Assembly (NCBI GenBank): GCA_030535235.1
Contig: JAUNCL010000019.1
Span: 1-43,510, forward strand
Reading direction: 5' to 3'
Source of the DNA: Bacillota bacterium
Lineage (GTDB): Bacteria > Bacillota > Clostridia > Oscillospirales > Oscillospiraceae
Length of the DNA: 43,510 nt
Below are positions 22,636 to 30,652 of the stretch, piece after piece (positions within the stretch are counted from its first letter, which is position 1; every line of letters begins with the position of its first letter). Below the pieces are notes generated by a model. It saw only the letters and a program-made list of their open reading frames with translations. It made no database searches and was not told where the DNA came from. Both the position numbers and the translations under genes were made by a program.

Positions 22636-23271
22636 ATGGATCTGCAGGAATATTTGGATCGCATGAACAGCGGCGAGCCCGTCACCGGCGAGGGAGACAT
22701 GCACCACTTCATGCGTCAGATCAGCGAAGAGACCATGCGCCTCACCTGCGAGCTCAACAACCAGTACCACACCCAGGAGGAGGTCCGGGCGATCTTTTCC
22801 AAGATCATCGGCAAACCCGTGCCGGAGGGCTTTCGCCTCTTCCCCCCCTTCTACGCCAACTGCGGCAAGAACATCACCGTGGGCAAGGGGGTCTTCATCA
22901 ACACCGGCTGCCACTTTCAGGACCAGGGCGGCATCACCCTGGGGGACGGCACCTTTCTGGGGAACAACGTGATCCTCACCACCATGAACCACGACTTTGA
23001 CCCGGCAAAGCGCCGGACCACCTACCCCGCCCCCATCGTCACGGGGAAAAACGTCTGGCTGGCCTCCAACGTCACCGTGGTCCCGGGGGTACATATCGGC
23101 GACGGCGCCATTGTGGCCGCCGGGGCGGTGGTCACCCGGGATGTCCCCCCCAACACCATCGTGGCCGGGGTCCCCGCCCGGGTCATCCGGACCATCGACC
23201 CCACCGAACGCCCCCGCCAGCGGCAGGATCTGGCCAAGCTCCGAAAGGAGCTGGAGGACGCGAAGCCCTGA
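22636..23271 (+). CDS. Sugar O-acetyltransferase (maltose/galactoside acetyltransferase family)
   Basis: A 211-residue left-handed beta-helix acetyltransferase that transfers acetyl from acetyl-CoA to a sugar or sugar derivative. N-terminal Mac-type cap (about 1-60) and hexapeptide repeats: [52 protein letters not shown] (catalytic His in NHD), [48 protein letters not shown]. The ATG at 22636 follows AAAGGAGG by six bases; the longer reading from 22456 overlaps cdd and is rejected. It could detoxify sugars or decorate surface glycans; the sequence does not decide. Confidence 0.92.
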
Positions 23272-23290
23272 CGGAACCCTTTATTATAAT

Positions 23291-23332
23291 GTAAAAGAAC
23301 TCCCTTGCCGGTGGGCAAGGGAGTTCTTTTAC
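23291..23332. terminator. Bidirectional terminator between the acetyltransferase and DUF378 genes
   Basis: A perfect 19-bp inverted repeat GTAAAAGAACTCCCTTGCC / GGCAAGGGAGTTCTTTTAC with a 4-base loop. Both outer parts are A/T-rich, so it can stop transcription from either side. Its right arm contains the TAA stop of the DUF378 gene. Confidence 0.9.
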
Positions 23333-23553
23333 ACAGTGCCTCTGGCCTGGCGCTCGCTGCCTTCCTCCCGGAAGAACATGGTGATGCACCAGATGGCCGA
23401 CGCACACACCAGGATATACACCAGTCGGCTCACAAAGCTGGCAGAGCCGCCAAAAAGGGCAGCCACCACATCCAGGCCGAACAGCCCGATCCCGCCCCAG
23501 TTCAGCCCGCCAATGATCAGCAGCGCCAGGGCGATCCGATCGATGATCTTCAT
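23329..23553 (-). CDS. Small DUF378 (YuzA-like) membrane protein
   Basis: 74 residues with two membrane segments: MKIIDRIALALLIIGGLNWGGIGLFGLDVVAALFGG, then FVSRLVYILVCASAIWCITMFF. The LLIIGGLNWGxxGLF pattern is the DUF378 signature. Function unknown. The start ATG at 23553 has GGGAGG eight bases upstream; a longer reading to 23646 lacks such a site. It is divergent from the SLH gene, and the 121 bases between contain two inverted repeats (23589-23619, GATGGGT / ACCCATC; 23640-23674). Confidence 0.88.
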   Translation of the reverse strand: MKIIDRIALALLIIGGLNWGGIGLFGLDVVAALFGGSASFVSRLVYILVCASAIWCITMFFREEGSERQARGTV

Positions 23554-23639
23554 ACAGAAAACCTCCCAGAATCGAAATTGGTTCCTCTGATGGGTAGTAT
23601 GCGCAGGGTGAAACCCATCTTTCCTGGAAATTTTTACAA

Positions 23640-23674
23640 GCCCCAAACAGTCTATGCTCAGATGATTTTGGGGC
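23640..23674. repeat. Inverted repeat ending exactly at the SLH coding junction
   Basis: Arms GCCCCAAA (23640-23647) and TTTGGGGC (23667-23674) with a 19-base centre. The right arm ends at the base before the CTG that begins the recognisable signal peptide. It could be a leader hairpin, a recombinase site or a boundary left by rearrangement. Confidence 0.5.
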
Positions 23675-26218
23675 CTGCGGAATCAGAAGAAGGTTCTGAG
23701 CCTGGTGCTCTGCATGGCCGTGATGCTGTCCGTCATGGTCGTGGGCGCAGGCGCAGCGTTCTCTGATCAGTCCAAGATCAAGAACACCGAGGCTGTTGAT
23801 GCATGTGTCGCACTGAACATTATCAACGGTTACACCGATGGTTCCTACAAGCCTGAAGGCACCATCACCCGCGCAGAAGCTTGCAAGATGATCTGCATCG
23901 CTCTGAACGGCGGCAAGGAGCCCGTCCTGGGCACCAACGCTACCCCCACTTTCACCGACATCAAGGGTCACTGGGCAGAAGCATATATTGAGTACTGCGT
24001 GTCCCTGGGCGTCGTTGCTGGCGTGGGCGGCGGCAAGTTCGACCCCAACGGTAACGTGACCGGCTCTCAGTTCGCCAAGATGTTGCTGATCGGCCTGGGC
24101 TACAATGCTGAGCACGCTAAGTTCCTGGGCAATGCTTGGGAAGTCAACGTCAACGTCGTCGCTTCCGAGAAGGGCCTGTATGACGAACTGAGTTCCATGG
24201 ATCCCACCAAGGCTCTGACCCGTGACAATGCTGCTCAGATGGTCTGGAATACTCTGCAGGCTATCGAAGTGTACTATGACTACACTCTGGTCAGCGATAA
24301 TGGCACCTTGACCTCTCAGGTTGTTGTGAAGGACAAGACCAGTGACAAAGGCAACGAATATGCAACCCTGCTGTGGACTAAGTACAACGCAGTTGTCAAG
24401 GAAGGCATCATGGTTGCCGTGAAGTATGACGACAAGAACGACGATTACAACACCAAGGTTCTTGACGTTAATGGCGATAAGGCTTTTGATGCAAATCAGG
24501 ACTACTCTGAGCTGATGGGTCAGAGCGTCAAAGTTATGTACAAGGAAAAGAGCGATAAGCTGGATTCTCTGTATGGTATCTATGCTACCGACAAGAACAA
24601 CACTGTCACTGCTATTTATGGCGATGTGAAGGATGACAATACGGCCGACAGCATCGTCGAAATCGACAGCAAAGAGTACAAGCTGGCAAGTGGATTCCAG
24701 ACTGTTGCAACCAACGGCGAACTGATTCTGGATAGCGACTATACTTGGGGTGGCACTCCCTATGCAGAAGTCACTTTAATCGATAACGACAACGATGACT
24801 ACTATGAGTACGCTGTGGCTAATCCCTTTAAGGTGGGTAAGGTTTCTACTCTGACCTCCTCTAAGATTTATATTTCCGGCACTAATGTTAACTCTGCCAA
24901 ATTGGAAAACTGCAATGTGTATGACGGAATCGCTCAGGACGATTACGTTGTTGTTACCGAAAGCAAATATGCTGTTTCTGTTAAGAACGAAATTAGCAAG
25001 GCTGAAGTTGTGACTGGCAAGGTTGACGGTACTCGCGCAAACGAAGTCCGTATCGATGGCACTTGGTATACCCAGGCTCCTGGCGCACAGGCTCCCACTT
25101 CCGCCAGCGGCGATGCCGAAGCCATTGTTGTGAATGGCTACTATTTCAATCTTGAAACCTCCAAGTCCAAGACTACCGACGTTGCCTATGTTGCTGATAT
25201 TACCTTGTCCGATTGGTCTTCCAACTATGACGGTAAGGCCCTGATCTATCTGCCTGATGGCACGTCTGTTACTACCCACTACAATCTGAAATCCGGTTCT
25301 GTCGCCAAGGGTGATCTTGTCCTCTATTCTCAGAAGGACGGTTTCTATGAAATCGAAAAGGCAACTACCGATAACACTGGCTTTGATCAGGCTGTTGCTT
25401 CCCAGTCCTACTATGACGATGAGAAGATTGGCACCAACCGTATCGCAGATGACGCTGTCGTATATGTTAAGTATCAGGATAGCGATAGCAAGGATGCCTA
25501 TAAGGTCATTACCGGTAAAGCTCTGAAGGCTTGGGGCGATGTTGCTGACAACACTTGGGCTGCTACTGGCTTCTTCAATAAGGTTGACGGCGTTCTGTAC
25601 GCAAAGGCACTGACTATCACTGCTAGCGCTTCTATGCCTGGTGCAAACGGCGATAAGGCTTACGGCATCATCGCAGACAGCAAGGCTTGGCTGGTCGAAG
25701 ATGAAATCAACAACAACGATTACATCCATGTTATGATCAACACCAGCGGCGAGGCTAAGGAGTATAAGTTTGAAGACAACGCCGACAATGCAGATCTGGG
25801 TGCAGTCGCTGTCAAGGGTGCTCTGGTCCAGTTCGATGTGATCGATGGTGATGTCATCAACAATGTCAGTGTCCCGTCCCTGACCGAGGGTGTTATCACC
25901 GGCTTTACCGGCACTGCTAAGGATGACGTGATCTATGTTTCTAAGAATGGCGAAGATACGAACGCACATGCCCTGAAGATCACTGATGACACCAAGATTG
26001 TCTATATCGATGCAGAAGAGGCTGAGGCTCAGGCTAACGGCAACATTATGAAGCCTCAGGCTACCGGTGATGCTAAGCAGTACTACGCTAACGTGTATTT
26101 CATTAATTCTGAACTGGATGGAAATGCTTCCGTTATCTTTGTGGATTACACCAACTCCATTGATGGTTCCGATAGCTCCCCCAAGGTTGTTACTCTGACT
26201 TCTGAGGTCAAGTGGTAA
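23675..26218 (+). CDS. S-layer homology (SLH) surface protein with non-standard 5' end
   Basis: A large secreted protein (847 residues if read from CTG 23675). The signal peptide reads LRNQKKVLSLVL... to GAGAAF, matching what I recall of MRN-type signal peptides in this group. Three SLH repeats follow (about 30-80, 90-145, 150-195): NGYTDGSYKPEGTITRAEACKM, FTDIKGHWAEAYIEYC...GKFDPNGNVTGSQFAKML, ALTRDNAAQMVWNTL. SLH repeats bind cell-wall polymers. The remaining 640 residues are Asp/Lys/Tyr/Val-rich, probably beta-sandwich S-layer body. There is no in-frame ATG before the signal peptide (TGA at 23663) and no ribosome site; a GTG at 23705 would cut off the basic N-region. Codons resemble highly expressed genes (GCT, AAG, GAC, GTT) and GC is well below the neighbours. 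Confidence 0.85.
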   Translation: MRNQKKVLSLVLCMAVMLSVMVVGAGAAFSDQSKIKNTEAVDACVALNIINGYTDGSYKPEGTITRAEACKMICIALNGGKEPVLGTNATPTFTDIKGHWAEAYIEYCVSLGVVAGVGGGKFDPNGNVTGSQFAKMLLIGLGYNAEHAKFLGNAWEVNVNVVASEKGLYDELSSMDPTKALTRDNAAQMVWNTLQAIEVYYDYTLVSDNGTLTSQVVVKDKTSDKGNEYATLLWTKYNAVVKEGIMVAVKYDDKNDDYNTKVLDVNGDKAFDANQDYSELMGQSVKVMYKEKSDKLDSLYGIYATDKNNTVTAIYGDVKDDNTADSIVEIDSKEYKLASGFQTVATNGELILDSDYTWGGTPYAEVTLIDNDNDDYYEYAVANPFKVGKVSTLTSSKIYISGTNVNSAKLENCNVYDGIAQDDYVVVTESKYAVSVKNEISKAEVVTGKVDGTRANEVRIDGTWYTQAPGAQAPTSASGDAEAIVVNGYYFNLETSKSKTTDVAYVADITLSDWSSNYDGKALIYLPDGTSVTTHYNLKSGSVAKGDLVLYSQKDGFYEIEKATTDNTGFDQAVASQSYYDDEKIGTNRIADDAVVYVKYQDSDSKDAYKVITGKALKAWGDVADNTWAATGFFNKVDGVLYAKALTITASASMPGANGDKAYGIIADSKAWLVEDEINNNDYIHVMINTSGEAKEYKFEDNADNADLGAVAVKGALVQFDVIDGDVINNVSVPSLTEGVITGFTGTAKDDVIYVSKNGEDTNAHALKITDDTKIVYIDAEEAEAQANGNIMKPQATGDAKQYYANVYFINSELDGNASVIFVDYTNSIDGSDSSPKVVTLTSEVKW

Positions 26219-26271: not shown

Positions 26272-26308
26272 AAAACTCGGACCTCACATCTGTGGGGTCC
26301 GAGTTTTT
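26272..26308 (+). terminator. Terminator of the SLH gene
   Basis: AAAACTCGGACCTCACA and TGTGGGGTCCGAGTTTT form a 17-bp stem with one G-T pair around a 2-base tip, followed by a T-run. 53 bases after the stop codon. The A-run on the left arm lets it work in both directions. The 110 bases beyond, up to 26418, show no gene or signal. Confidence 0.9.
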
Positions 26309-26476: not shown

Positions 26477-26842
26477 TTATCGGTTCTTCAGCAGAATCTC
26501 CAAAATGTGTCCATCCGGGTCCTTGATGAAATAAATCCCGGAAGGCAGTTCGTCAAAGACCAGTCCCATGGCCCGGTGCTTTGCCTTGAGACCGTCGAAG
26601 TCCTCGGCCACCAGGGCCACGTGGGGGGTGTCGTCCCCCAACTGATAGGGTTCCGTCCGGGCGGTCTCCTTGCACAGCTCCAGCTGGAAGTCGGTGACGC
26701 CGTCCCCCAGGAAGATCAGCTTCCAGCCCCGGTCGGGCATGTCCAGCTCCCGCTGGATGGTCAGCCCCAGGGTTTCCTGATAAAATGCGGTGCTGCGGGC
26801 CAGATCCAGCACCCGCACGCAGACATGATTCATTGCGATCAT
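26477..26842 (-). CDS. gloA: Glyoxalase I (lactoylglutathione lyase) family protein
   Basis: Metal-dependent isomerase of the VOC fold that removes methylglyoxal as its thiol adduct. 121 residues, MIAMNHVCVRVLDLARSTAFYQETLGL. All four metal ligands expected for glyoxalase I are in place: H6, E55 (DFQLEL), H74 (DTPHVAL) and E115 (GHILEIL). That makes it a better match to GloA than to a generic VOC protein. Start ATG 26842, with GGGAGG nine bases upstream; the longer reading to 26902 covers the promoter. Single gene. The thiol cofactor in this organism is unknown. Confidence 0.88.
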   Translation of the reverse strand: MIAMNHVCVRVLDLARSTAFYQETLGLTIQRELDMPDRGWKLIFLGDGVTDFQLELCKETARTEPYQLGDDTPHVALVAEDFDGLKAKHRAMGLVFDELPSGIYFIKDPDGHILEILLKNR

Positions 26843-26873
26843 AGGTAATTCCTCCCTGCCTTTGTTTTTCTCC

Positions 26874-26902
26874 ATTTTACCACGGAGACCGAACCGGGGC
26901 AA
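26874..26902 (-). promoter_or_regulatory. Promoter of the glyoxalase gene
   Basis: On the minus strand TTGCCC (26897-26902), 17-base spacer, TAAAAT (26874-26879), 32 bases before the start codon. Confidence 0.6.
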
Positions 26903-28689: not shown

Positions 28690-28718
28690 CGGGGACATTC
28701 GGTTGCCGAATGTCCCCG
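28690..28718 (+). terminator. Terminator after the beta-CASP gene
   Basis: CGGGGACATTCGG-ttg-CCGAATGTCCCCG is a perfect 13-bp stem followed by TTTCTGT. It lies 31 bases after the stop and 30 bases before the S41 protease start. Confidence 0.85.
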
Positions 28719-28747
28719 TTTCTGTCCGGCGAGACAAGGAGGAACCC

Positions 28748-30652
28748 ATGAAACACCTTTGGAAAAAGCTGACCGCCCTCATGCTCACCCTGGCCCTCTG
28801 CCTGGCCCCCGCGGCCCAGGCGCTGACCGCCGATCAGCTGAAGGAGCTTTTGGAAACGTATTATATCGACGAAGTCCCCCAGGCGGCCCTGGACGCCGAG
28901 ACAGTGGAGGAGGTCATCCAGGCTCTGGGGGACCCCTACACCATGTACATGACCCCGGAGGAGTTTGAAGCCTTCCTGGCCTCCATGAAGGACAGCTCAG
29001 TGGTGGGCATCGGCATCTCCGCGCTGCCCGACGAGGACGGCCTGCTGGTGGTGGGCGTATATGCCGGGTCCCCGGCGGAAAAGCTGGGCCTGGTGGCCGG
29101 CGACCGCATCATCAGCGTGGACGGCCACCAGGCCGCCGGCCAGCCGGCCGACACCATCACCGGATGGCTCAAGGGGGAGGAAGGGACCCAGGTGACCTTC
29201 ACCGTCCGCCACGCCGACGGGACCCAGGAGGACTGCACCGCCACCCGGGCCCAGGTGACCATCCCCGCCACCACCACGGAGCTGCTGGAGGATGGGACCA
29301 CCGGCTACATCGCCTGCACCACCTTTGGCGAGGAGACCCTGGGCCACTTCACCGAGGGCATCCAGGCCTATGACGACGTGAACCTGTGGATGGTGGACCT
29401 GCGGAACAACGGCGGCGGCGACGTCTACGCCGTCACCCAGACCCTGGGAACCTTTCTCGGGGAGGGGACCCAGGTCTACCTGCGGGACAGCGAGGACCAG
29501 TACTACCGCTATGTGTCCCAGCAGGAGAGCCTGACCATCTCGCCGGCCATCGTTTTGGTCAGCCCCCAGACTGCCTCGGCGGCGGAGATCTTCTCCCTGG
29601 CCATTAAGGACAAGCAGGGGGGCATGGTCATCGGCTCCAACACCTACGGCAAGGGCGTAGCCCAGATCATCCTCACCGAGGCGCAGCAGCCTGAGGCTCT
29701 GGACGGCGACGCCCTGCGAATCACCGCCTATCAGTATTATGGCGTCAGCGGCAACACCGCCAACCGCATCGGCGTGGTCCCCGATCTGCTGGTGGAGGCC
29801 GAGGACGCCGACGAGATCGCCCGGCTCTTCTCTGCCCGGGAGCCCAGCGGGGACAAGAGCGGCTGGCTCCGCATCCACCTGGGGGGCTGGCGCTGGTTCG
29901 TGGACACAGAAAATGCCATGAGCCAGGAGAACGCCCCCTACTTCGGCAAAATGCTCTCCGCTCTGGCCCCCGGCTGTGTCATCATGCGGGGGGAAGGAGA
30001 CAACTGGACCAAAACCACCGCCCAGGCGGTGGCGGCAGAGTATAACGTACCCAACTACATCCCCCGGACCTTCTCCGATGTGGAAGGAATGGACTGCCAG
30101 CAGGCCGCCAACACCCTGCGGACCTATGAGATGCTCCTGGGCTATAAGGACGGCACCTTCCGGCCTGACAACACCCTGACCCGGGCGGAGCTGTGCGCCC
30201 TGCTGGTCCAGGCCATGGGCCTGCCTGCCGCCGGGTCGGGGGTGACCTTCACCGATGTGGCCGAGGACAGCTGGTATGCCCCCTCTGTTAAAGCGGCCTG
30301 CGCCGCCGGTTACATGGAGGGCGTGGGCCAGGGCCGCTTCGATCCCAAGGGAACGGTGACCCACGAGGAGATGATTACCGTTCTGGGCCGTCTGGCCGCC
30401 GAGCTGAACCTGAACTTCTATCAGGCCTCCAAGGAGACGCCGGCGGAGACCGGCGTGCCGGAGGGCTACAGCGACTGGGCGGAACCCTGGGCCTGGCTGC
30501 TGGCCAAGAGCCAGAGGAATATCCTGGGTCAGACCCTGAACATGCTGTATGACGACCTGGAAAACATCGATCCCCGGACTTCCGCCACCCGGGGCGAGAC
30601 TGCCCAGGTGCTGTACACTATTCTCTCGGCGGTGGAAGTGATCAAATACTGA
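28748..30652 (+). CDS. Secreted S41 C-terminal-processing protease with PDZ and SLH repeats
   Basis: 634 residues: signal peptide (about 1-25, KKLTALMLTLALCLAPAAQA), N-terminal helical part, PDZ domain (about 85-165, VVGIGISALPDEDG ... SPAEKLGLVAGDRIISVDG), S41 catalytic domain (about 185-345) with DLRNNGGGDV, the catalytic Ser in PQTASAAEIF (S277) and Lys in NTYGKGVAQ (K302), then two or three SLH repeats (about 440-635: LLGYKDGTFRPDNTLTRAELCALL, GRFDPKGTVTHEEMITVL, DPRTSATRGETAQVLY). The SLH tail should fix the protease to the same wall polymer as the S-layer. The ATG at 28748 follows AAGGAGG by five bases. The asparaginase gene begins 21 bases after it. Confidence 0.94.
   Translation: MKHLWKKLTALMLTLALCLAPAAQALTADQLKELLETYYIDEVPQAALDAETVEEVIQALGDPYTMYMTPEEFEAFLASMKDSSVVGIGISALPDEDGLLVVGVYAGSPAEKLGLVAGDRIISVDGHQAAGQPADTITGWLKGEEGTQVTFTVRHADGTQEDCTATRAQVTIPATTTELLEDGTTGYIACTTFGEETLGHFTEGIQAYDDVNLWMVDLRNNGGGDVYAVTQTLGTFLGEGTQVYLRDSEDQYYRYVSQQESLTISPAIVLVSPQTASAAEIFSLAIKDKQGGMVIGSNTYGKGVAQIILTEAQQPEALDGDALRITAYQYYGVSGNTANRIGVVPDLLVEAEDADEIARLFSAREPSGDKSGWLRIHLGGWRWFVDTENAMSQENAPYFGKMLSALAPGCVIMRGEGDNWTKTTAQAVAAEYNVPNYIPRTFSDVEGMDCQQAANTLRTYEMLLGYKDGTFRPDNTLTRAELCALLVQAMGLPAAGSGVTFTDVAEDSWYAPSVKAACAAGYMEGVGQGRFDPKGTVTHEEMITVLGRLAAELNLNFYQASKETPAETGVPEGYSDWAEPWAWLLAKSQRNILGQTLNMLYDDLENIDPRTSATRGETAQVLYTILSAVEVIKY

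Follow-up and report, generated by a model that had tools for sequence, protein, structure and literature searches.

A surface-layer gene without start signals is very probably a silent cassette of an Evtepia switching system

Background

Surface-layer (S-layer) genes can be subject to rearrangement: the sap genes of Campylobacter fetus are switched by homologous recombination, and the slpA and slpB genes of Lactobacillus acidophilus lie in opposite orientation. We analyzed a stretch of 43,510 bp (the window; contig JAUNCL010000019.1 of GenBank assembly GCA_030535235.1, from a Bacillota bacterium of the genus Evtepia), in which an S-layer-type gene begins with neither promoter nor start codon. 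A preliminary description of the window had suggested that this gene is a silent cassette, activated by recombination at its 5' end. Here we compare it with related copies in its own genome, in its genus and beyond.

The closest described systems are found in mycoplasmas and in other bacteria with S-layers. In the vsa system of Mycoplasma pulmonis (HvsR) and the vpma system of M. agalactiae (Xer1), one promoter is joined in turn to silent bodies by inversion; the excerpt of PMC2268961 that describes them has the vsa promoter moving with a 5' coding segment, and a tyrosine recombinase gene near the vsa or vpma locus. For C. fetus, a reference title in PMC4902306 speaks of a single promoter for several S-layer genes on an invertible segment. 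According to the excerpted text of PMC7858073, the active and silent genes slpA and slpB of L. acidophilus are swapped by chromosomal inversion, and an excerpt of PMC12548429 describes the S-layer of the gut bacterium Bacteroides thetaiotaomicron (BT1927) as controlled by inversion. Among the matches listed in a literature search over titles, with few subscription journals covered, no title dealt with S-layer switching in Evtepia.

We conclude that the window gene is very probably a silent S-layer cassette of a single-expression-site switching system in Evtepia, in a genome where that switch looks worn or lost. Cassette switching itself is proposed from sequence patterns, as the most likely account of them, and by analogy the system most likely works like vsa/vpma, sap and slpA/slpB.

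Results and discussion

The window gene and its start region

The window is contig C34 of a 51-contig draft genome (G000) that is 97.7% complete. Counted from the CTG at 23675-23677, the frame has 847 codons (Table 1). Its product contains SLH domains in two stretches (PF00395, E = 1.1e-27), and its N-terminus is, by eye, hydrophobic and signal-like. The gene has a GC content of 0.496 overall and 0.59 at third codon positions, neither of them outside the range seen in the five full-length S-layer genes of G000 with which it was compared.

The preliminary description read the start region correctly. The frame opens at a CTG downstream of an in-frame TGA, and neither a Shine-Dalgarno (SD) sequence nor an ATG, GTG or TTG occurs between this TGA and the 13-bp core discussed below. 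It had also seen no clear promoter, and our scan of 23280-23760 for sigma-70-type promoters returned 0 matches (0.3 in shuffled sequence); such scans covered three copies, namely the window copy and the two copies on contig C24 described below. The rest of the gene is intact, as had been claimed, and the strong terminator is there too, as a stable hairpin that a consensus terminator scanner left unreported; the likely reason is that its U-run is paired within the stem. An inverted repeat next to the CTG, which had been noted as well, exists with 10 of 11 positions paired but has no evident part in the system: a perfect stem of equal length appeared in 20 of 300 shuffles, and the repeat sequence is absent from the aligned flanks of other cassettes, whose own repeats were not searched. 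Being at chance level, the repeat (23640-23674) was rejected as a recombination site.

Headed and headless copies in the same genome

The segment after position 23686, where the core GAAGAAGGTTCTG begins, occurs six more times in G000. One of these occurrences, C24:55540 on the minus strand, is the second copy that the preliminary description had predicted: it shares the 5' segment and has a promoter (TTTACA-17-TATAGT), a conserved leader, AAAGGAGG and an ATG, with a start that reads ATGAGAAACCTG. We refer to copies with such start signals as headed and to those beginning at the core without them as headless. The headed copy and the window copy differ by 1 mismatch over the first 90 nt. Another occurrence, C24:58830 on the plus strand, is a second headless frame of 835 codons. 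It is identical to the window copy for 105 nt from the core, its left flank is unrelated, and the scan found no promoter match there. The two C24 copies have opposite orientations and face apart, with 3.3 kb between them that hold gap, encoding GAPDH, and a histidine-kinase-like gene. The number of silent copies found in G000 is thus two. As far as sequence comparison can support it, the identity first proposed for the window gene, a silent S-layer cassette, is backed by the headed copy and by the headless copies in the genome and the genus.

The other four occurrences are S-layer-type genes with an SD and ATG of their own, three on contig C6 and one distant short copy on C45. The genes on C6 (C6:75648, 82709 and 90733) share one leader type and differ in their core codons; given these codons and their own start signals, we rejected them as silent cassettes. 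C6:90733, which has its own promoter, also encodes MRNLKKVLSL, in other codons, so that the core and its uniformity are features of the DNA rather than of the protein. The three genes stand in a row, with bodies closest (40-49%) to silent cassettes of E. gabavorous, and to judge from this resemblance they look as if they were former cassettes that gained their own start signals.

Headless copies across the genus and beyond

We compared 16 Evtepia genomes, including E. gabavorous KLE1738 (G003), Candidatus (Ca.) Evtepia faecigallinarum (G002) and Clostridiales bacterium SUG277 (G010). A 25-nt core pattern was found in 22 stretches of named genomes: 10 of E. gabavorous KLE1738, 5 of Ca. E. faecigallinarum, 6 of SUG277 and 1 of Ca. 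Egerieimonas intestinavium. A 24-nt pattern, GAAGAAGGTTCTGNSNNTGGTNYT, which was derived from sites already known, had 46 matches in 9 of the 16 genomes, 44 of them distinct because two pairs represent overlapping contig ends; the reversed control had 0.

A protein-level count over the examined stretches gave 56 copies. Of these, 12 are headed. All the others are headless, 43 having the core and one, a fragment in G012 truncated where its contig ends, lacking it. One further site, on C3 of G014, stands outside this count. The 43 span 10 genomes, 9 of the genus and G199; two of them (G003 C43:7382 and C44:6030) lack a left flank and are assumed to be headless, and two G003 pairs are overlapping contig ends, so that 39 distinct headless copies have a left flank. 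E. gabavorous has 13 silent bodies. Where the stop is visible, 19 of 21 headless frames have 778-1021 codons (17 of 19 when the left flank is visible too), the short exceptions being G014 C85 (354 codons) and G199 C27 (27 codons). In 7 of the 43, the 22 nt before codon 1 contain an SD-like string, and none of these 7 has an ATG, GTG or TTG there; the headless copy on C42 of G006 has a GTG at codon 1 and no SD. Headed copies with the exact core occur once each in G002, G003, G010 and G011, and the core of the headed copy in G004 is off by one base.

Among 300 sampled genomes of the family, each with three candidates scored, 15 had a DNA match; outside the genus the match was strong only in G199. 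Two records outside the genus have the same headless start, G199 and a stretch of Ca. Egerieimonas (L107). A search of IMG/VR for exact copies of the 25-nt core region found none. In G014 and G199 (L148-L151), headless copies have an in-frame TGA immediately left of the core, in most of them as GGTGAACCCT; G199 also has two cores in tandem, 78 bp apart.

These counts bear on two other explanations, of which the preliminary description had named a genuine CTG start and a small deletion as alternatives. The gene might be expressed in place, from the CTG or from an internal GTG (23705) or ATG (23714), as its open frame and strong terminator would allow. We consider this extremely improbable, because promoter match and SD are lacking, an internal start loses the lysines of the signal peptide, and 43 copies are built in the same headless way. 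Alternatively, a one-off small deletion or an assembly error might have removed the promoter and ATG, and the locus viewed alone would look just so. However, the second headless copy in G000 starts at the same base, as do headless copies in other genomes, and the window copy is interior to its contig, at least 17 kb from either end; this explanation, too, has hardly any chance of being right.

The expression site and signs of exchange

The promoter, leader and SD left of the core are common to the headed copies of six genomes (G000, G002, G003, G010, G011 and G015) as judged by alignment, the promoter scanner having been run on G000 only. In all six, gap adjoins the headed copy; in G000, G002, G003 and G010 this gap gene is 89-90% identical to that of G011. 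G015 has one headed gene and no core match. The headed bodies themselves are not orthologous: in the three cassette-bearing genomes where they are full-length (G000, G003 and G011), their identity past residue 230 is only 28.6-31.1%. Right of the core, 10 copies in G003 are 100, 99 and 100% identical over successive 30-nt bins, then 88 and 81%; this block differs between species, indicating that it is kept uniform inside each genome.

Beyond the SLH part, bodies within G000 are approximately 29% identical, and most bodies, including that of the window, have no relative above about 50%. A few bodies at sites that are silent or unplaced are closer to one another: C24:58830 to G004 C55 and G010 C2, whose heads are not visible, and G002 C191:24193 to G003 C32:17660, a silent pair. 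For such pairs we computed nonsynonymous (dN) and synonymous (dS) divergence by simple counting over the whole length. The silent G002/G003 pair has dN 0.207 and dS 1.23 (ratio 0.17). Among bodies that are silent in the assemblies, G003 C43 and G010 C69 have dN 0.397 and dS 1.18 (ratio 0.34), and two bodies on G003 C44 have dN 0.34 and dS 1.05 (ratio 0.32). For C24:58830, the values are 0.232 and 0.79 (ratio 0.29) against G004 and 0.286 and 1.31 (ratio 0.22) against G010. The ratios are rough, since dS is high and partly saturated. That they all stay far under 1 suggests occasional use of bodies that are silent at present. Several silent bodies are under purifying selection; the window's own body falls outside this test.

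Silent copies are inverted relative to their partners in the C24 pair and on contigs of G003 and G010, while the window copy sits on a separate contig. Between or beside inverted cores (L062, L063, L066, L069 and L071) we observed blocks of ordinary genes, including gap with the kinase gene, a branched-chain amino-acid transporter and NADH dehydrogenase-like genes. Switching would flip the housekeeping genes that lie between inverted cores. Separately, one E. gabavorous contig (C43) stops 2 nt left of the core (L064 end, C43:7373), though the body there is unique from +33. This break may hint at several left flanks in the culture; we do not count it as evidence.

Repeats and a recombinase at silent sites

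The hexamer GTGGGA lies at -46/-45 in all 25 silent-flank rows (23 distinct) of G001, G002, G003 and G010, four genomes picked because the motif was noticed there and whose flanks are partly similar to one another. In the same 25 rows it occurs again at -68/-67 or -57/-56, an 11-bp phase. None of five headed flanks has it within 200 nt. The Ca. Egerieimonas intestinavium site (L107:3500-3800, DVHU01000014.1), which is independent of the discovery of the motif, is headless, has the core and carries GTGGGA at -68, -57 and -46 by hand count; possibly it reflects transfer of the module between genera, or mis-binning in a metagenome-assembled genome. In G000, C24:58830 has a weakened version in register. 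We also considered the window's left flank as a worn form of such a repeat-bearing module, and make no such claim: two parts of the flank were matched by 0.15 and 0.25 of window positions, and for the inner 30 nt 0.028 of positions were as good, before allowing for 7 shifts.

A tyrosine recombinase of approximately 370-380 residues (PF00589, E = 5.8e-21), weakly Xer-like and far below the NCBIfam cut-offs, adjoins a silent core in G003 and G011; in G010 and G002 it has cassettes on both sides within one contig. Orthologues at 73% identity or more occur in 7 of the 16 genomes, the one in G007 with one in-frame TGA, and the recombinase loci of G004 and G003 have an adjoining transporter gene in common. 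The linkage of recombinase and cassettes is suggestive, not strict. Directly behind C24:58830, at the end of that contig, lies a large serine recombinase (Recombinase, Zn ribbon and DUF4368 domains; L008:16474-17907, truncated by the contig end). It was seen at this site only among the clustered loci; we therefore treat it as a passing element and rejected it as the switch enzyme.

A proposed switch and its rivals

In the mechanism we propose, one S-layer gene at a time would be read from an expression site made up of gap, the conserved promoter, the leader, the SD and ATGAGAAACCT. The head would be joined to a cassette body at the core, within the signal-peptide codons, and the other bodies would wait elsewhere without start signals, often inverted. 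Recombination at the core, or in the near-identical signal-peptide stretch of about 90-105 nt, would invert the intervening DNA and set a different body behind the promoter. In several species the tyrosine recombinase probably acts here, aided by the phased GTGGGA repeats at silent sites, which may serve as its binding sites. In the window's species the cassette would now be silent, and if it can still be reached, then only through rare homologous recombination across the roughly 100 near-identical nucleotides.

A number of observations weigh against this proposal. The evidence comes from assemblies, with one genome per species. Gene conversion alone could homogenize the blocks. Among the bodies compared, none is close to that of the window (best about 29% beyond residue 230), which places it outside the selection test, and the roughness of the ratios given above is a caution for the other bodies. 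In C24:58830 an in-frame TTG stands 15 nt ahead of the core-proximal codons; it is preceded at a distance of 1-2 nt by AAAGGA, which we judged too close to the TTG to serve. No headed copy was found in the examined stretches of G001, G006 and G014. The repeats are not universal: among 12 silent flanks outside the four genomes above, 5 have them in register (C24:58830, one in G011, two in G014, one in G199) and 7, the window's included, do not, and none was found in three flanks of G006 or in that of G004 C31. The recombinase has no cassettes alongside in the examined stretches of G004, G006 and G007, nor does a 59% relative on G010 C49; G001 and G014 have headless copies yet no orthologue. In G000 itself the recombinase was not found (best 26% at useful length), and the core of the expression site is altered, reading GAAAAAGG.

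Some of these points would follow if cassettes were exchanged by ordinary homologous recombination through the roughly 100 near-identical nucleotides, with no dedicated enzyme and with the nearby recombinase incidental. Block identity over 90-105 nt within genomes fits such exchange, as do the headless copies of G000, G001 and G014 and the recombinase genes that stand apart from cassettes. On the other hand, homologous recombination leaves unexplained why the left edge is sharp at the same nucleotide, why the 13-bp core is invariant across species while neighboring codons vary, and why phased repeats stand at a fixed distance at many silent sites only. We regard it as a possible but rather doubtful account of the system as a whole. 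As a tentative suggestion, to which we give somewhat less than even credence, the enzyme may be a phage-integrase-like recombinase working on asymmetric attP/attB-like sites, with up to three phased arm repeats at silent sites and none at the single expression site; each switch would invert ordinary genes (those for GAPDH and the histidine kinase, or the branched-chain amino-acid transporter), the module would cross genera, and the window's species would represent the state after loss of the recombinase.

For the window's own species, the missing recombinase, the altered expression-site core and the lack of repeats suggest a cassette in a lineage whose dedicated switch is worn or lost, and "switchable" may have to be put in the past tense. 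The same observations, together with the weakened repeats at C24:58830, the finding of only two silent copies and the synteny break on both flanks (see below), would fit a dead remnant, that is, a pseudogene that has outlived its switch and has not yet decayed. Yet both silent frames are intact, the identity to C24:58830 and the near-identity to the headed copy argue for recent exchange, and the recombinase could be missing from a 51-contig draft by chance; we find a dead remnant unlikely. The intact frames and the 105-nt identity suggest that the loss was recent or that homologous recombination still works. Read as a silent cassette, the window gene may lie dormant, or homologous recombination may be its one remaining means of switching.

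Neighborhood of the cassette

The features of the window that surround the cassette are collected in Table 1. The cassette stands at a double synteny break. On its left, the block formed by the DUF378 gene and a gene that we take to encode an acetyltransferase is continued by different genes in G003 and G010; the outer genes show the same for G004. On its right, the block with the presumed glyoxalase-like gene has other neighbors in G003 and G010, shared by the two and not present in the 6 kb seen of G004. The former neighbors lie on contigs C25 and C22 of G000, where no S-layer relative was found. A single inversion was therefore rejected as the origin of the window junction, and the different glyoxalase side of G004 weakens it further. 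An S41 peptidase gene with a PDZ domain and two SLH stretches (28703-30652, plus strand) lies 2.5 kb behind the cassette, which gives the window another protein with SLH domains.

Table 1. Features in and around the headless S-layer gene of the window
Feature	Position	Strand	Remark
Presumed acetyltransferase gene, left neighbor block	22636..23271	+	Other neighbors in relatives
DUF378 gene, left neighbor	23338..23553	-	One block with the presumed acetyltransferase gene
Left flank of the cassette	23554..23685	.	Without promoter match, SD or GTGGGA repeats at -68/-57/-46
Inverted repeat	23637..23677	.	Arms 23637-23647 and 23667-23677, 10/11 pairs
In-frame TGA upstream	23663..23665	+	No start codon from TGA to core
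Headless SLH S-layer protein frame (putative silent cassette body)	23675..26218	+	Open to TAA at 26216-26218
13-bp core GAAGAAGGTTCTG, putative crossover site	23686..23698	+	Homology to other cassettes starts here
105-nt signal-peptide block	23686..23790	+	Identical to silent copy C24:58830; one difference from the expression-site copy (C24:55529) in the first 90 nt
Intrinsic terminator hairpin 3' of the cassette	26272..26307	+	-26.9 kcal/mol, z -7.4
Presumed glyoxalase-like gene, right neighbor block	26477..26902	-	Block located elsewhere in relatives

Comparison with described systems

The resemblances to known systems are functional only, and they hold as far as the excerpts of the sources cited above extend. 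With vsa and vpma the Evtepia genomes would share one promoter that serves silent bodies in turn, and some relatives of the window's species have a tyrosine recombinase gene near cassettes. In the excerpt on vsa, however, the shared 5' part measures 714 nt, while Evtepia copies share the signal peptide only. Moreover, the Evtepia copies come from gut bacteria and encode SLH S-layer proteins, the silent bodies often form inverted pairs around ordinary genes, and many silent sites have phased repeats. The single promoter for several S-layer genes, named in the reference title, recalls sapA of C. fetus; the Evtepia relatives differ in having a candidate recombinase and a defined core, and inversion in Evtepia is itself a conjecture. 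In geometry, slpA/slpB comes close to C24:55540 and C24:58830, but the excerpt describes one silent gene there, compared with 2 in G000 and 13 silent bodies in E. gabavorous. For BT1927, the excerpt has a promoter that flips ON and OFF for one gene, whereas Evtepia would share one promoter among many bodies.

Conclusions

The genomes can be arranged as a series, from one headed gene without a core (G015) through the active-looking arrays of E. gabavorous to the worn-looking array of the window's species. If the proposed switch is real, these bacteria probably change their outer coat by cassettes taking turns behind one promoter, and if the reading with asymmetric sites is true as well, the repeat-bearing site in Ca. 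Egerieimonas would mean that the module travels between genera. To go by the slpA/slpB and BT1927 systems, variation of the S-layer may bear on attack by phages, on tolerance of bile and on recognition by the immune system. For a human gut genus, the finding suggests a large repertoire of switchable coats; since the expression site, the core and a candidate recombinase can be identified, coat variation in such commensals becomes directly testable.

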